A stretch of DNA of 41,005 bases from a virus, in IMG/VR virus record IMGVR_UViG_3300005530_000018, positions 1-41,005 of that record; one strand, given 5' to 3'. The notes beneath the pieces are model-generated. The model ran no database searches and was not told the origin of the DNA. It saw only the letters and a list, made by a program, of their open reading frames with translations. The translations under genes and the position numbers were made by a program. This document shows positions 4,928 through 41,005 of the stretch, in pieces (the first letter of the stretch is position 1; each line of letters begins with the position of its first letter).

Positions 4928-5280
4928 GCAAGATCTACGAAAGCACGCACGAGGGCGCGGTGTCCTACGGCGAGGACGGGCTGGCCACCGTCCATCTGTG
5001 CAAGGGCCAGCAGTTCGACGAGGGCACGGACATCGTGGTGGCCCGGCCGGACCTGTTCAAGGAGGCCGGGGAGAAGATCCAGGTCTCGGAGAAGGTCCAG
5101 GTGGACGGCACCACCACGGACCGGGACGGCCACCCGATCGACGAACCCACCACGGACGACGGGACCACGCTCACGCCGGACACCCAGACCGAGGTCCGGG
5201 ACGGTGTGCCGCTCGTGAGCGACTCCATCCCGTCCAAGCCGACCAAGAGCGCCAAGACCACGGACACGAGTAAGTCATGA
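4924..5280 (+). CDS. Small structural-operon protein, paralogue of the next gene
   Basis: A 118-aa acidic protein of unknown function. Its first half contains YGEDGLATVHLCKGQQFDEG and DIVVARPDLF, which is repeated in the next gene; the second half is Thr/Asp/Pro-rich and probably disordered. It overlaps the glycosyltransferase by ATGA and the following gene by ATGA, so the three are translationally coupled. It could be a head-associated or linker protein and perhaps a glycosylation acceptor, given the Ser/Thr-rich tail; that is inference. Confidence 0.7.
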   Translation: MSKIYESTHEGAVSYGEDGLATVHLCKGQQFDEGTDIVVARPDLFKEAGEKIQVSEKVQVDGTTTDRDGHPIDEPTTDDGTTLTPDTQTEVRDGVPLVSDSIPSKPTKSAKTTDTSKS

Positions 5281-20413: not shown

Positions 20414-20442
20414 ATCTTACCAAGTTCTTAGTAAGGACGCAA
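20414..20442 (-). promoter_or_regulatory. Operator-promoter P1 (MTase operon)
   Basis: Reading leftward: -35 TTGCGT (20442-20437), 17-nt spacer, -10 TAAGAT (20419-20414), then 6 nt and ATG 20407. The palindrome CTTACCAAGTTCTTAGTAAG (20416-20435) fills the spacer and overlaps the -10, so a bound repressor would block polymerase. Confidence 0.8.
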
Positions 20443-21379: not shown

Positions 21380-21672
21380 CGGAGCCCCGCCTCTCGGTTC
21401 AGCGCGTCGGCTAGCTCGGTCGAGAACCGGCCCGGGTTGCTTGCCCAGATCTCGGCCGCCGTGCGCGGCTCGGCCTCGACCTTGAGCCGTTCGATCTCGG
21501 CCCTGGCCGCGTCCCGCTCGCCGACTCGATGCCGAGCGGCCCACTCAGCGTGGCCGCAGAAGTAGCCCTCTCCGGCCGGGAACGCGCACATCTTCGGTTC
21601 CAGGTGGTGCGCCTCGAACGGATGCCGGAGCAGCGTAGGCGCAGGCCCGCTCTCCGGGGTGGTCTCTGTCAT
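21376..21672 (-). CDS. Small protein, first gene of the operon divergent from tra
   Basis: A 98-aa protein with a Cys/His pair pattern (KMCAFPAGEGYFCGHAEW) that may bind zinc and a helical middle (RDAARAEIERLKVEAEPRTA). Its ATG stands 6 nt after the P2 -10, predicting a leaderless mRNA. It overlaps the GIY-YIG gene by ATGA. Function is unknown. Confidence 0.65.
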   Translation of the reverse strand: MTETTPESGPAPTLLRHPFEAHHLEPKMCAFPAGEGYFCGHAEWAARHRVGERDAARAEIERLKVEAEPRTAAEIWASNPGRFSTELADALNREAGLR

Positions 21673-21678
21673 CCTCAG

Positions 21679-21708
21679 ATCTTACCAAGAACTTAGTACA
21701 CCCGTCAA
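21679..21708 (-). promoter_or_regulatory. Operator-promoter P2 (divergent from tra)
   Basis: Leftward: -35 TTGACG (21708-21703), 18-nt spacer, -10 TAAGAT (21684-21679), 6 nt, ATG 21672. Operator CTTACCAAGAACTTAGTA at 21681-21698. It is back to back with the tra promoter region. Confidence 0.82.
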
Positions 21709-21722
21709 GGATGGGACGGCAC

Positions 21723-21757
21723 TGGCGCTTCCTAGGAACCTAGTACAGAATACTAAG
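21723..21757 (+). promoter_or_regulatory. Putative tra promoter P3 with variant operator
   Basis: TTCCTAGGAACCTAGTA fills the 17-nt spacer between a weak -35 TGGCGC (21723-21728) and a possible -10 CAGAAT (21746-21751), again 6 nt before ATG 21758. Compared with the common operator core CTAAGAACTTAG, this core is CTAGGAACCTAG: the two changes are symmetric, so the palindrome is kept. No Shine-Dalgarno precedes tra. The -35 and -10 are poor matches, so the promoter call is tentative; the palindrome is plain. Confidence 0.55.
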
Positions 21758-23446
21758 ATGAGGGTAAAGCAGCACAGCCGCCGCGGACTCCCCACGCTGC
21801 TCTGGCGCTTCTGGATCACCGGGCGCCCGCTGTGGGGTCCGGGCGATAACGCCACCTTCCTCCACGACGCGACCCAGGACTACCGCGGCGGACCGGTGGA
21901 GCGGCTCGGGCGCGCCCGCTGGCGCCGCGTGGCCGCGCGCTGGGCGCTGCTGGCCGTCCCGGCCGCCGCGTGGTACCTCGGCGGATGGTGGGCGCTCACG
22001 GGCTACCTCACGGTCGCGCTCGGGCTCGGCGGCACGCTCGCGGCCCGCGGCGCCCTCGCGCTCTGGCGCGGCCGGGAGTACCAGCTCCCCGTCTGGCGCG
22101 TGGTGTGCCGCGTCCTCGGCGAGCGCTACAGCCCCCGGGCGGCCGTGCGCTCCGTCCAGCTCCGGCCGGCGGGCGAGGACGGCGAGGTGGCCGCACGCAT
22201 CCTGCTCCCGGTGGTCCCGCTGGACGAGTCCGCCCGTAAGCGGGTCGTGTCCGCGGCGGCCGAGCGGCTCGGCATCGCCGATGCCGCCGCGTCCTGGATG
22301 GTCAAGGGGGCCAGGGCGCACGTGGACGTGTCCGTCCGGCTGCTCCCGCCGCGCACCCTGACCTACGCCGAGTGCCGTGCCATCGTGGAGGCGGCCGACC
22401 CGGCCAAGCCGTTCGTGGGCCTGGCGGCCGACCGCAAGCCCGTGTACGCGGACCTGGACAACGACGGGCCGCACATCGGCGTGAGCGGCGGCACGGGCAC
22501 GGGCAAGAGCACCCTGATGCGGCTCGTCCTCGCGCAGCGCATGGCCGCCGGGGCCGGCGTGGTGTGCTGCGATTACAAGGTCACGTCCCACACCTGGCTC
22601 CGCAAGATCGCGCAGCGGGACCCGCACCGGGCCGTCTACCTCATGGACGAGGGCGAGATCCACGAGGGGATCATGGCCGTCTTCGCCGAGTTCCAGCGGC
22701 GGCGTGAGGTGCTCAAGGTGGACGCGTCCGCCCTGGACGAGTTCCGGGACGTGGACCTCGTGGTGGAGGAACTCAACTCCCTGGCGTCCATGCTGCGCGC
22801 CTGGTGGGCCATGGAGCGCAAGCGGCTCGTCCAGGAGGCCAAGGACATGGACGTGGAGCCTGACTTCCTGCCCACCGTGTGTCCGTCCGTGTCCGCCCTG
22901 GCCGCCCTCGTCCAGATGGGACGCGAGCTCCGCATCCGCGTGCACTTCCTCGCACAGCGCCTGGACGCGTCCGCCATCGCGCCCAAGGACGGCGGGGCCG
23001 TCCGCGAGTCGATCACCAATCGCTTCCTGGCCAAGTACACGAAGCAGACGTGGGACATGCTGTGCAAGGGCGTGCCGTTCCAGGCGTTCCCGGGCGGCCC
23101 GCGGGGCATCTGGACCGCGGTGGTCAACGGCGAGGTGACGTTCTTCCGGGTGCCGCCGATGAGCGACCAGCAGGCCACCGAGCTGGCCCTGTCCAGCCCC
23201 ACGCCGGCCGGTCCGGTGCTCGGTGGCCGCCGGCTCGAGAACGTAGGGCCACAAGCTCTCGAGGGTGGCGTGACCATCCGGGAGGCGCTCGGCCGGCTGA
23301 CCGCTCCGCCCTCGCTGGCCGCGGCCCGCAAGCGGGTGGAGCGCGCCAAGCTGACCGCGGTCGGGCAGCGCCCCGGCGGGGAGCTGGAGTTCGAGTGGAC
23401 CGAGCTGGAGGCGCTGCTGCTGAGCGCGTCGCACAGGCCGTCGTAA
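21758..23446 (+). CDS. tra: Tra/TraB-type FtsK-SpoIIIE DNA translocase (mycelial conjugation)
   Basis: A 562-aa membrane ATPase of the Streptomyces plasmid Tra family (pIJ101 Tra, TraB, TraSA), which moves double-stranded plasmid DNA between mycelia as a hexamer. Membrane segments are near residues 60-100 (LLAVPAAAWYLGGWWALTGY, then VALGLGGTLAARGALALW). The Walker A motif is GVSGGTGTGKST at 241-252 with Lys250; Walker B is VDLVVEELNSL at 332-342. The C-terminal 60 residues (IREALGRLTAPPSLAAARKR onward) look like a small DNA-binding winged helix. It is the only rightward gene between two leftward operons and has its own operator. A DNA packaging role is unlikely because terminase is present. 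Confidence 0.88.
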   Translation: MRVKQHSRRGLPTLLWRFWITGRPLWGPGDNATFLHDATQDYRGGPVERLGRARWRRVAARWALLAVPAAAWYLGGWWALTGYLTVALGLGGTLAARGALALWRGREYQLPVWRVVCRVLGERYSPRAAVRSVQLRPAGEDGEVAARILLPVVPLDESARKRVVSAAAERLGIADAAASWMVKGARAHVDVSVRLLPPRTLTYAECRAIVEAADPAKPFVGLAADRKPVYADLDNDGPHIGVSGGTGTGKSTLMRLVLAQRMAAGAGVVCCDYKVTSHTWLRKIAQRDPHRAVYLMDEGEIHEGIMAVFAEFQRRREVLKVDASALDEFRDVDLVVEELNSLASMLRAWWAMERKRLVQEAKDMDVEPDFLPTVCPSVSALAALVQMGRELRIRVHFLAQRLDASAIAPKDGGAVRESITNRFLAKYTKQTWDMLCKGVPFQAFPGGPRGIWTAVVNGEVTFFRVPPMSDQQATELALSSPTPAGPVLGGRRLENVGPQALEGGVTIREALGRLTAPPSLAAARKRVERAKLTAVGQRPGGELEFEWTELEALLLSASHRPS

Positions 23447-25048: not shown

Positions 25049-25078
25049 ATCTTACTCAGATCTTAGTAAGACTGTCAA
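25049..25078 (-). promoter_or_regulatory. Operator-promoter P5 (DUF2637-like operon)
   Basis: Leftward: consensus -35 TTGACA (25078-25073), 18-nt spacer, -10 TAAGAT (25054-25049), 6 nt, ATG 25042. Operator CTTACTCAGATCTTAGTAAG at 25051-25070. The stop codon of the upstream gene (25056) lies inside the operator. Confidence 0.85.
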
Positions 25079-33725: not shown

Positions 33726-33763
33726 TTGCGGGAGTACCAGGGTCTTAGTAAGATCTTAGTAAG
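33726..33763 (+). promoter_or_regulatory. Operator-promoter P10 (primase operon)
   Basis: Rightward: -35 TTGCGG (33726-33731), 17-nt spacer, -10 TAAGAT (33749-33754). The operator CTTAGTAAGATCTTAGTAAG (33744-33763) differs from the consensus at one base and covers the -10 and start point, forming two direct copies of CTTAGTAAG. A leader with AAGGAGGA follows. Confidence 0.78.
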
Positions 33764-33787
33764 ACACCGATCAAGGAGGACATGATC

Positions 33788-34119: not shown

Positions 34120-36360
34120 GTGAGCGACAGTATCATGAGCCTGAACGCCGAGCACGTCCGGGAACTGGTGGAATGCAGCTCCATCGATCCCGCCGTGATC
34201 GCCGAGCGGGGCTACGTCACCGTAGGCCGCCCGAAGTCCACGCTACCCGGCGCGTTCGGCATGGACGCCCGGGAACAGCTCAAGGCCCTCGGGTTCCCCT
34301 CGTGGGCCATCCGCGAGGAGTACTTCTACCCGGGCCTGCTCATCCCGCAGTACACGCCGAGCGGCCGGAAGTACGCCGGCCAGTGGAAGCCCCGCAACGC
34401 TGTGCCCAACCGCGAGGGCAAGCGGATGAAGTACGCCAGCGCCAAGGGCCCCGCGCGGCTGGACGTCCACCCCCGCTGGAGCGTCGGCGCCCGGGACGCG
34501 GTCGTGCCGCCCATCCAGGACACCGCCCGCCGGCTCTGGATCACCGAGGGCGTCAAGAAGGCGGACGCCCTCACCTCCCGCGGGGAGGTCACCGTAGCCC
34601 TTGCTGGGGTTTACAACTGGCGCAACACCCACGCCACCCTCGGGGACTGGGAGGACATCCCGCTCAAGGGCCGCGAGGTCATCGTGTGTTTCGACGCGGA
34701 CGCGGTCACCAAGCCCCATGTAGCCCAGGCCATGGCCAGGCTCGGGAAGTGGCTCAAGCACAAGGGCGCGACGCCCCGGTACGTCCTCCCGCCCGGCGGC
34801 CCAAAGGGCGTGGACGACTTCTTTGCCAGCGGCGGCACCCTCGCCGAGCTGGAGGCCGCCATCACTGGCCGCCCGCCACAGGTGCTGGCGGACGAGGACG
34901 TGTTCACGGACAGCGCCCTGGCGGACCTCGTGGCCACGGCCGTCCTGGAGGACCAGTACGTCCGCACAACCGGGCTCGGGTGGATGGGCTGGAACGGGCG
35001 GCACTGGCGCCCAATCGACCACGGCGAGGTCACCGAAGCCGTGCGCGGGTTCTTCCGGGAGCGCTACGCCGAGGCCCTGGAGGATGACGCGTCCGCGGCC
35101 CGGGAGGGCCGCGCCGTGGACTCGGTGCGGACCGAGGGCTGGCGCAAGGTCCAGAGCGCATCCAAGATCAACGCCGTGCTGTCCCTGGCCGGCAACATCC
35201 AGGGCGTCCTCGTGGACGCCAGCGTGTTCGACACCGACCCGGACATCCTGAACACGCCCGGCGGTGTCCTGGACCTGCGTACGGGCGAGGTGAGCGACCA
35301 CGACCCGTCCTACTGGTGTTCCAAGATGACCGGAGCCGCCTACCGGCCCGGCGCGGAGAGCGCAGCGTTCAAGGCCGCCCTGGAGGCCGTTCCGGACGAG
35401 GCCCTGAACTGGCTCCAGCTCCGCCTCGGCCAGGCCATCACCGGGTACCCGACCGATGACGGCACGATGCTGCTCCTCACCGGTGGCGGGAACAACGGCA
35501 AGACCGTGCTCCTGGGCAGCGCGTTCCGGGCGCTCGGCTCGTACGCCCGGAAGATCCCGAACGCGCTGCTCCTCAAGGGCAAGAACCCCGGCGGGGCCAC
35601 ACCCGAGAAGATGACCTTGCGCGGGACGCGGCTGGCGTACATGGAGGAGACCCCCGAAGAGGGCCACCTGGACGCCAACATGGTCAAGGAGATCTTCGAC
35701 GCCGAGGTGATCGACGGCCGGGACCTGTACAAGTCCACGGTGGAGTGGACCCCCACCCACTCCCTGTTCCTGAACACCAACCACGCCCCGCACGTCTCGG
35801 ACACGGGCGATGGCACCTGGAGGCGCCTGCTCCGCCTGGACTTCCCGTACCGCTACCGCGGCCCTGGACAGCCCCTGGAGCGCCCAACGGACCGGGTGGG
35901 TGACCCGGTCCTCAAAGCCGCGCTCGGCCAGCAAGAGGCCCGTGAGGCTGTCCTGGCGTGGCTCGTGGCCGGCGCTCGGCGGTGGTACGACGCGGGCCAG
36001 ACCCTCTCGGACGCCGCGGGCCTGCCGGACGTGGTGATGGACTCGGTGCGGCGGTGGCGCGAGGCGTCGGACGACGTCCTGCGCTGCCTGTCCGCACTCT
36101 GCGAGGTGGACGCGTCACGGTGGGTGTCCTCGGATCGGCTCTACCAGGAGTACCGGGCCTGGGCGCAGCGTGAGGGGTCCCGGGCGATGTCCTCGCGCGA
36201 GTGGAGCAAGCGTCTGCTTGACCACAGCGCGCTACCAGGCACGGTGTACGCCAAGGTGGTCCGGCGCTCCGCCGAGGGCGGGTCGTGGCCTGCATGGCAT
36301 CCCGCGCCGACCGATGGACCGGAGCAGTTCCGAGTGATCATGGGCCTGACGTTTCGGTGA
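34120..36360 (+). CDS. P4-type primase-helicase (replication initiator)
   Basis: A 746-aa replication protein. Residues about 100-250 form a Toprim-like/DUF3854 domain (LWITEGVKKADALTSRGEVT, EVIVCFDADAVTKPHVAQAM with the acidic DAD). Residues about 270-400 match D5_N-type sequence (SKINAVLSLAGNIQGVLVDA, DILNTPGGVLDLRTGEVSDH). The superfamily 3 helicase follows: LLLTGGGNNGKTVLL with Lys461, LAYMEETPEEGHLDANMVKE, and SLFLNTNHAPHVSDTGDG. GTG 34120 has GGAGG about 8 nt upstream. It should unwind and prime at the inverted repeat directly downstream. No DNA polymerase gene is seen, so host polymerase is probably used. Confidence 0.88.
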   Translation: MSDSIMSLNAEHVRELVECSSIDPAVIAERGYVTVGRPKSTLPGAFGMDAREQLKALGFPSWAIREEYFYPGLLIPQYTPSGRKYAGQWKPRNAVPNREGKRMKYASAKGPARLDVHPRWSVGARDAVVPPIQDTARRLWITEGVKKADALTSRGEVTVALAGVYNWRNTHATLGDWEDIPLKGREVIVCFDADAVTKPHVAQAMARLGKWLKHKGATPRYVLPPGGPKGVDDFFASGGTLAELEAAITGRPPQVLADEDVFTDSALADLVATAVLEDQYVRTTGLGWMGWNGRHWRPIDHGEVTEAVRGFFRERYAEALEDDASAAREGRAVDSVRTEGWRKVQSASKINAVLSLAGNIQGVLVDASVFDTDPDILNTPGGVLDLRTGEVSDHDPSYWCSKMTGAAYRPGAESAAFKAALEAVPDEALNWLQLRLGQAITGYPTDDGTMLLLTGGGNNGKTVLLGSAFRALGSYARKIPNALLLKGKNPGGATPEKMTLRGTRLAYMEETPEEGHLDANMVKEIFDAEVIDGRDLYKSTVEWTPTHSLFLNTNHAPHVSDTGDGTWRRLLRLDFPYRYRGPGQPLERPTDRVGDPVLKAALGQQEAREAVLAWLVAGARRWYDAGQTLSDAAGLPDVVMDSVRRWREASDDVLRCLSALCEVDASRWVSSDRLYQEYRAWAQREGSRAMSSREWSKRLLDHSALPGTVYAKVVRRSAEGGSWPAWHPAPTDGPEQFRVIMGLTFR

Positions 36361-36373
36361 CGCTGCGTAGTGC

Positions 36374-36458
36374 GTGACGGATGTGACGGGTCGTTCAAAC
36401 TTTTCCTAGAAACCTCTCCGCGTGGGAAAACTTTAGAACGATCCGTCACATCCGTCAC
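36374..36458. other. Probable replication origin: long inverted repeat with GTGACGG iterons
   Basis: Left arm 36374-36406 and right arm 36425-36458 are nearly perfect inverted copies (GTGACGGATGTGACGG... then CGTTC and an A/T-rich end), separated by 18 nt. Each arm carries two direct copies of GTGACGG. The inner part (TTCAAACTTTTCCTAGAAAC and GGGAAAACTTTAGAAC) is the most A/T-rich in the region. It directly follows the P4-type primase gene, where such proteins often bind. A large terminator is the alternative. Confidence 0.65.
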
Positions 36459-36475: not shown

Positions 36476-36504
36476 TTGTAGTCGTACTAAGAACTTGGTA
36501 AGCT
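36476..36504 (+). promoter_or_regulatory. Operator-promoter P11 (endonuclease VII operon)
   Basis: Rightward: -35 TTGTAG (36476-36481), 17-nt spacer, -10 TAAGCT (36499-36504). Operator TACTAAGAACTTGGTAAG at 36485-36502. An 18-nt leader with CGGAGG precedes ATG 36523. Confidence 0.78.
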
Positions 36505-36522: not shown

Positions 36523-36753
36523 ATGGAGATCAACAACCCCGGGGAGACCCGCTACGTACGGCAACTGCTCAAGGTCGAGTGGCAGAGCCCGGAGAGCATG
36601 ATCATCACGGTGGACGACGTCCCGGTCGCGCTCTACGACACGCGCAGTCTGCGCGGCGGGCCGGACGCCGAGCTGTGGCGTACCGCGCGCCTGCTCCGCA
36701 TGCTCGCTGTCCGGCTCCGGCTGGACCACGCCGAGGATCGTAGCCGTGCCTGA
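36523..36753 (+). CDS. Small protein, first gene after the origin
   Basis: A 76-aa protein (NPGETRYVRQLLKVEWQSPE, IITVDDVPVALYDTRSL, ELWRTARLLRMLAVRLRLDH). CGGAGGTG precedes ATG 36523. Its end shares a 25-nt identical DNA segment with the next gene. No family recognised. Confidence 0.6.
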   Translation: MEINNPGETRYVRQLLKVEWQSPESMIITVDDVPVALYDTRSLRGGPDAELWRTARLLRMLAVRLRLDHAEDRSRA

Positions 36754-39791: not shown

Positions 39792-41005
39792 CCGCCACCC
39801 TGGACCTGACCACGCTCCGCGGGAAGACCACGCCACGGCTCTGGACGCCACCCCTCGTGGATGAGCTGACCCCCGAGACCACGATGGGCTTCCGATGGGA
39901 GCGCTTCGCGGTGGAGGCGCTCCGCCGGCCGCCGCTGCCGTGGCAGCGCTGGCTCTGGATGCACGCCGGGGAGCTCCGCCCGGACGGCACGCCCCGTTTC
40001 CGCATCGTGCTCGTGATCGTCGGCCGGCAGAACGGCAAGACCGAGACCCCCGCGATCCTGAGCGGGTTCTGGCAGTTCGTGGAGCGGGTGCCGCTCATCC
40101 TCGGTACCTCGTCCAAGCTGGACTACGCCAAAGAGTCGTGGGTCAAGAGCGTGAAGTACGTGGAGGCCGCGCCCAAGCTCAAGCGCCACCACCCGGTCCG
40201 CTGGACCCGCGAGGCCAACGGCGAGCAAGAGTCGTGGACGCTGCCGGACGCGCGGACCGGGTCCCGGTACAAGATCGCCGCAGCGAACAAGGACGCCGGG
40301 CGTTCGCTCACCGTGTACCGGCTCATCATGGACGAGCTGCGACAGCACGAGGATTACGTGGCCTGGAACGCGGCCGAGCCCACCACGGCCACGGTGCGCG
40401 ATGCGCAGATCTGGTGTCTGAGCAACGCGGGCACGGACCGGAGCGTGGTGCTCAACGACCTGCGCGCCTCGGCGCTGGAGTACATCCGGACCGGCGTGGG
40501 AGATCCGCGGCTCGGCCTGTTCGAGTGGAGCGCGCCCGAGGGCAGCGACCCCGAGGACATCGATGCGCTGCTCCAGGCCAACCCCGCGGCCAACTACCTG
40601 AACCCGGACGGGCTGGAGACGCTGCTGGCCGCGGCCCGCCGGGCCAAGGCCAGCCCGGATCCGCGGGCCCGAGCCGGCTTCATGACCGAGTACATGTGCA
40701 TCACGGTTCCGAAGGCGGCCGAGACGGCCACGGCTGTGGAGCCGGAGCGCTGGCGTGCGCTGCTGGACCCGGCCAGCCAGGCGGGCCCCGATGTGGCGTT
40801 CGCCATCGACGTGGCGCCCAAGGGCCGTTCAGCGTCCATCACTGCGTACTCGATGCGCCCGGACGGCCGCGGACACGCCGAGGTGGTGGCGAACCGGCCG
40901 GGGACCGCGTGGGTGGTCCCGGCCGCGGTCCGGCTGGCCCACCTCCACGAGCCGCTGGTGTGGGTGGTCGATGGTAAGGGTCCTGGCTCGTTCCTGCCGG
41001 GTGCG
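39788..41005 (+). CDS. terL: Terminase large subunit, N-terminal part (continues at base 2)
   Basis: The 406 codons present here give the ATPase domain and start of the nuclease domain. Walker A-type motif: VIVGRQNGKTE with Lys84; Walker B: RLIMDELRQ with Asp182-Glu183; coupling motif region WCLSNAGTDRS. The nuclease begins at FAIDVAPKGRSASI. The frame is open to the last base and continues at the left end of the window. GTG 39788 overlaps the preceding stop. Confidence 0.93.
   Translation, partial: MTATLDLTTLRGKTTPRLWTPPLVDELTPETTMGFRWERFAVEALRRPPLPWQRWLWMHAGELRPDGTPRFRIVLVIVGRQNGKTETPAILSGFWQFVERVPLILGTSSKLDYAKESWVKSVKYVEAAPKLKRHHPVRWTREANGEQESWTLPDARTGSRYKIAAANKDAGRSLTVYRLIMDELRQHEDYVAWNAAEPTTATVRDAQIWCLSNAGTDRSVVLNDLRASALEYIRTGVGDPRLGLFEWSAPEGSDPEDIDALLQANPAANYLNPDGLETLLAAARRAKASPDPRARAGFMTEYMCITVPKAAETATAVEPERWRALLDPASQAGPDVAFAIDVAPKGRSASITAYSMRPDGRGHAEVVANRPGTAWVVPAAVRLAHLHEPLVWVVDGKGPGSFLPGA
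40966..41005 (+). repeat. 40-nt terminal repeat of bases 1-40 (circular contig overlap)
   Basis: The last 40 bases equal the first 40 exactly and fall inside terL, in frame. This is the usual sign of a circular or circularly permuted genome assembled past its starting point, not a biological end. Confidence 0.95.

Follow-up and report, generated by a model that had tools for sequence, protein, structure and literature searches.

The replication origins of phage P4, Lactobacillus phage A2, Streptococcus phage Sfi21 and the plasmid pRN1 have inverted arms made of short words, repeated with a period of 8–12 bp, around 53–71 bp of DNA. In phages A2 and Sfi21, GenBank annotates an origin right behind the 3' end of a P4-type primase gene. 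In pRN1, a stem-loop of ∼100 bp downstream of orf904 was studied by deletion and relocation and found to be required and, when relocated, sufficient in cis; it was described by its authors as a stem-loop without iterons (PMC4234260). The SaPI Rep protein uses its C-terminal domain to bind iterons that directly follow the gene encoding it, and the SCCmec protein Cch2 likewise recognises, through its C-terminal domain, repeats in the corresponding position (PMC7581432).

Here we describe an element of this kind in the IMG/VR virus record IMGVR_UViG_3300005530_000018, the whole of which (41,005 bases, hereafter the window) was analysed. The two ends of the record (positions 1–40 and 40966–41005) are identical and a high-GC3 frame of 519 codons spans the joined ends, indicating a genome that is complete and either circular or terminally redundant. 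Judging by its genes, which include those for a portal, a protease, a major head protein, a head–tail adaptor, an amidase, an exonuclease and a DNA methylase, the window is a tailed phage. The proteins tested, a subset of those encoded, include no integrase. A G+C content of ∼70%, together with actinophage and Streptomyces relatives of the primase, points to an actinobacterium as the host.

The first-pass annotation had noted, between the primase-helicase gene and a sequence termed operator P11, a 33-bp inverted repeat with paired GTGACGG copies and an A/T-rich inner sequence, and all three parts of this description were borne out (Table 1). The arms of the repeat measure 33 and 34 nt, with 31 of 33 positions paired, a single 1-nt bulge and a loop of 18 nt, and their outermost 16 bp match exactly (GTGACGGATGTGACGG). 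Each arm opens with two GTGACGG copies at a period of 9 bp, mirrored in the opposite arm, giving four iterons in the 85-nt element. Between the exact arms lie 53 bp with an A+T content of 57%, against ∼30% for the genome, and only 0.07% of the 53-mers in the window are equally A/T-rich. The element begins 13 nt past the stop codon of the primase gene; it is intergenic and is followed by a copy of a 23-nt near-palindrome (operator P11, positions 36482–36504) and then by a small gene (36523–36753).

Table 1. Positions of the repeat, its iterons and the adjoining primase-helicase gene in the window
Feature	Position	Strand	Basis
Inverted-repeat left arm	36374–36406	+	Read from sequence
Inverted-repeat right arm	36425–36458	-	Read from sequence
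Iteron 1, GTGACGGAT	36374–36382	+	Read from sequence
Iteron 2, GTGACGGGT	36383–36391	+	Read from sequence
Iteron 3, GTGACGGAT	36441–36449	-	Read from sequence
Iteron 4, GTGACGGAT	36450–36458	-	Read from sequence
A/T-rich inner segment, proposed first strand-opening site	36390–36442	.	Composition; melting role inferred
Primase-helicase, 746 aa, proposed initiator	34120–36360	+	Pfam; PHROGs; profile match 7ola
Primase C-terminal region, predicted winged helix, proposed iteron-binding domain	36028–36357	+	AlphaFold2 model

When arms of 31 nt were compared without gaps, 27 of 31 positions matched, making this the top inverted repeat of the window, whereas the best inverted repeats in five first-order Markov shuffles of the whole window reached 21–23 matches. 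GTGACGG by itself is not enriched (13 occurrences in the window against 15.9 expected). The special feature is the arrangement of GTGACGG and not the frequency of the word.

The adjoining protein carries two Pfam domains above the cut-off, DUF3854 (residues 139–239) and D5_N (280–422), in addition to weaker matches to a DUF5906-like AAA+ core (453–569) and, weakly, to Pox_D5 (650–701). In PHROGs it matches DNA primase families. By sequence profile and fold, its helicase and C-terminal parts resemble solved D5-type primase-helicases, including that of SaPI5 (7ola). An AlphaFold2 model of residues 440–746 (mean pLDDT 88.7) closes with the order helix-helix-strand-helix-helix-strand-strand, and the primase is accordingly predicted to end in a winged-helix domain; a single-sequence model of the last 118 residues (pLDDT 52) was too poor for use. 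Pfam detected no Prim-Pol (archaeo-eukaryotic) domain in this protein, and neither Pfam nor PHROGs detected a nicking domain. Its closest relatives (L227–L237) are proteins of about 1450 aa of the Streptomyces phage-plasmid type, with 33–37% identity across the helicase part, and they have no such element 3' of the gene.

Compared with P4, the window has several features in common. The P4 alpha protein likewise combines a Toprim-type primase with a D5/SF3 helicase, the type 1 iterons of P4 (GTGAACAGT), listed for both crr and ori, also have a 9-bp period and stand in inverted groups, and crr lies just 3' of the alpha gene with the same inner spacer of 53 bp. However, the iteron word of P4 is not GTGACGG, and P4 has two cis regions, with ori distant from the gene and crr adjoining it, whereas the window has one compact element. 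A second cis region in the style of ori plus crr was not found in the window, where the paired word has a single occurrence in 41 kb. Since A2, Sfi21 and pRN1 are likewise one-region systems, this excludes a P4-like two-part layout but not the wider class. The A2 and Sfi21 origins consist, as in the window, of inverted iteron groups around A/T-rich DNA, but they have more iterons, a longer region and different words (ACGGGAGGAT and TTAGTTACT), and belong to phages of low-GC hosts.

The pRN1 origin resembles the window in being an inverted repeat (∼100 bp versus 85 nt) just 3' of a gene for a primase–D5 helicase–winged helix protein, although an archaeal-type prim-pol domain takes the place of the Toprim-related one. 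In the pRN1 sequence (L245, NC_001771, positions 5083–5183), each 21-nt arm holds TGTCCA twice at a spacing of 9 bp, and the loop is 58 nt. As we read this sequence, the stem-loop origin of pRN1 is an inverted iteron pair with the same anatomy as the window element, an interpretation that is ours and not that of the pRN1 authors. SaPI Rep and SCCmec Cch2 parallel the layout proposed for the window in that the repeats of the helicase lie directly 3' of its own gene, a likeness drawn from the published description. Their iteron words differ from that of the window and, for Cch2, direct repeats suffice for binding while inverted repeats are dispensable (PMC7581432). Phage BPP-1 (cited in PMC4234260) was considered as a further case of the same anatomy and rejected, having a 9-bp inverted repeat only and no tandem words.

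In viral contigs, at least 120 stretches matched a pattern in which a pair of GTGAC words with 9-bp spacing is opposed, at a distance of 45–75 nt, by an inverted pair. Using a D5-type profile built from proteins of these same loci, on which the neighbour counts therefore depend, we found that among the matches listed the 3' end of a D5-type gene lay at most 300 nt before the paired element in 72 of 123 loci, and that a D5-type gene overlapped the element or lay within 300 nt of it in 11 further loci (83/123 in total). The distance from gene end to paired element, again among the matches listed, was mostly 17–43 nt and usually ∼25 nt. Ten large neighbours were tested at loci without a D5 match; eight were VapE-like or DUF927 proteins, which represent further types of primase-helicase, one was an AAA_25 ATPase and one gave no match. 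A survey of 84,980 species genomes of bacteria and archaea gave 32 occurrences of the exact paired motif, distributed over four phyla (Alphaproteobacteria, Actinomycetota, Firmicutes and Acidobacteriota), and 22 of these 32 fell no more than 200 nt beyond the 3' end of a D5-type gene. Among loci of the first scan with one exact motif copy only, a D5-type gene was so positioned in 20 of 98. Since the paired motif defines these sets of loci, the counts speak to its association with the gene family and not to how frequent the word is among such genes.

Of the phages selected by similarity of the primase protein, several unrelated ones have inverted groups of tandem words 3' of the gene. The words differ widely, as in mycobacteriophages Urkel (GGCACAGAT) and TM4 (ATGACGGAT) and Acinetobacter phage 4316 (AGTGACGTT), and other primase-similar phages have no such groups. 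In a small and unplanned contrast, an inverted iteron pair 3' of the primase gene was absent from all five tested phages in which a DNA polymerase I is encoded alongside the primase (L328, L329, L334, L338 and L344). In the alphaproteobacterial members (L018, L027, L031, L345 and many others), the segment between the pairs is an alternating purine–pyrimidine CG/CA run (for example GCGCGCGCGTGTGCGCG) flanked by short A/T-rich boxes rather than plain A/T-rich DNA.

Relatives of the A2 primase, gathered by protein similarity (L280–L326, A2-family phages), nearly all have repeated words 3' of the gene, with at least 12 different words in 40 loci. Each locus was labelled by hand with its most repeated word before counting. 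Within a set of 36 unique A2-family proteins, we compared pairs whose core identity was 85% or more. Identity in the wing (residues 736–770) was 76.7% for pairs with different words (n = 91) versus 95.5% for pairs with the same word (n = 50), figures given without a P value because the pairs are non-independent and a few swaps are common to many sequences. Residues 1–735 showed no such difference (0.97 versus 0.98 for the helices before the wing, and 0.993 versus 0.992 for the AAA+ part). In several swaps the preceding helix is constant, EMQKKF being followed by EYVRKRNGR, EYVRKMDGR or DKHKRGSF where the words are GTGACGGA, ATGACGGA and TAGGGAGGA, respectively. Judged by these comparisons, changes of iteron word in the A2 family go together specifically with changes in the wing of the C-terminal winged helix, which links the protein to the repeat. 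A simple rule for A2 residue 754, with Arg accompanying G and Met accompanying A as the first base of the iteron, fits the discovery set only and was rejected; it is a lead at most, since some new loci deviate from it (Ser occurs with a G word in L384, and Lys with an A word in L385). In the GTGAC-word set, which is too divergent and word-selected for a comparison of this type, the word tracks the C-terminal domain no better than it tracks the helicase core.

Because tested origins in other phages and plasmids have the same layout, we consider it very probable (roughly 0.88) that positions 36374–36458 are the replication origin of this phage, whose genome is circular or terminally redundant, or at the least the core to which the initiator binds. 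An origin had been the claim of the first-pass annotation, and it is supported by position, by recurrence of the paired motif in many unrelated phages behind primase genes of one family, by the anatomy of tested origins and by the covariation of wing and word in a related family. Counted against it are the lack of the element in the closest primase relatives, the presence of four iterons only, the lack of a second cis region, the failure of the word to track the C-terminal domain better than the core across the GTGAC-word set and a strand-controlled GC skew that is the same in both replichores. The GC-skew check proposed in that annotation lent no such support. Cumulative skew has its minimum at 35888, near the element (detrended maximum, 18244), but the signal vanishes once gene strand is controlled, the third-position skew of + strand genes being equal in both halves, and we therefore rejected skew-defined replichores as support for the origin. 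The origin is of a known kind, of which the window element is a new example; in the open-access literature, including that on origins downstream of primases, no paper on GTGACGG as an origin motif was found.

By analogy with P4, SaPI and pRN1, the primase-helicase would bind the two inverted GTGACGG pairs through its C-terminal winged helix and could assemble as two facing AAA+ hexamers, which may open the A/T-rich DNA between the iteron pairs. The primase would then lay the first primers and a host polymerase would extend them both ways, leading to bidirectional theta replication. Of these steps, it is the first, binding to the iteron pairs, that has indirect support here. Such an origin may be used in the lytic cycle, in the plasmid state or in both.

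A hairpin placed right after a stop codon might instead work in the RNA, terminating or attenuating transcription where the primase operon ends, and that of the + strand is indeed very stable (-67.9 kcal/mol, z -5.7). However, there is no U tract, no terminator-like (Rho-independent) site was found at the repeat, and the Rfam match is at chance level only. Moreover, tandem direct repeats within the arms are not needed for a hairpin, yet many phages have them, the words and their copy number varying from one to another, and in the A2 family a DNA-binding wing changes along with the word. The pRN1 plasmid requires its origin stem-loop but can dispense with its terminator, which is a separate site (PMC4234260). 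Taken together, these observations weaken the terminator explanation, which we regard as unlikely.

It is very unlikely that the iterons serve as operators for repression or autoregulation of neighbouring genes, by the primase or by a different regulator, and do not start replication. The intergenic region is regulatory, since a separate family of 23-nt near-palindromes (12 copies) has a copy at 36482–36504, and iterons of plasmid initiators often autoregulate as well. Nevertheless, the element follows the primase gene at its 3' end and does not precede the primase promoter, and its tested equivalents in A2, Sfi21, P4 and pRN1 are origins (PMC4234260 for pRN1). Even more improbable is a rolling-circle double-strand origin nicked in the loop; the large stem-loop downstream of the pRN1 replication gene was once read in this way (discussed in PMC4234260), but the protein adjoining the window element is a primase with a D5/SF3 helicase in which no nicking domain was found, and loop sequences are not conserved among relatives.

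For an uncultivated, actinobacterium-like phage, a defined 85-bp origin candidate is thus at hand with its likely initiator, and the two could be used to build a minimal replicon. The covariation of wing and iteron, together with the reinterpretation of pRN1, is of more interest than the origin assignment itself. The natural exchanges of word and wing suggest that the pRN1 stem-loop origin and the phage iteron origins are the same thing. It is a real possibility, although we put it forward tentatively and short of calling it probable, that phages, satellites and archaeal plasmids share one very broad class of self-specified origins, made of inverted iteron pairs that follow D5/VapE-type helicase genes and including the pRN1 'stem-loop', in which the word is read chiefly by the wing, the matched wing–word pair sets replication incompatibility groups and the code is partly readable from sequence. 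If the wing chiefly reads the word, wing and word would evolve as a matched pair and so set such groups; the pairing of Arg or Met at one position of the wing with G or A, respectively, as the first iteron base would, if true, exemplify a readable code. The natural swaps of word and wing make the specificity of this class of initiators directly testable.

Two further observations concern the rest of the window. The 23-nt near-palindrome (TCTTACCAAGWWCTTAGTAAGA) has its 12 copies between positions 20415 and 38533, mostly intergenic in the early region (for example at 25050–25072 and 33743–33765, besides operator P11), and looks like a series of repressor operators or stoperators. A 595-aa protein (21659–23446) has weak matches to HerA/FtsK-type ATPases and is possibly involved in DNA translocation.
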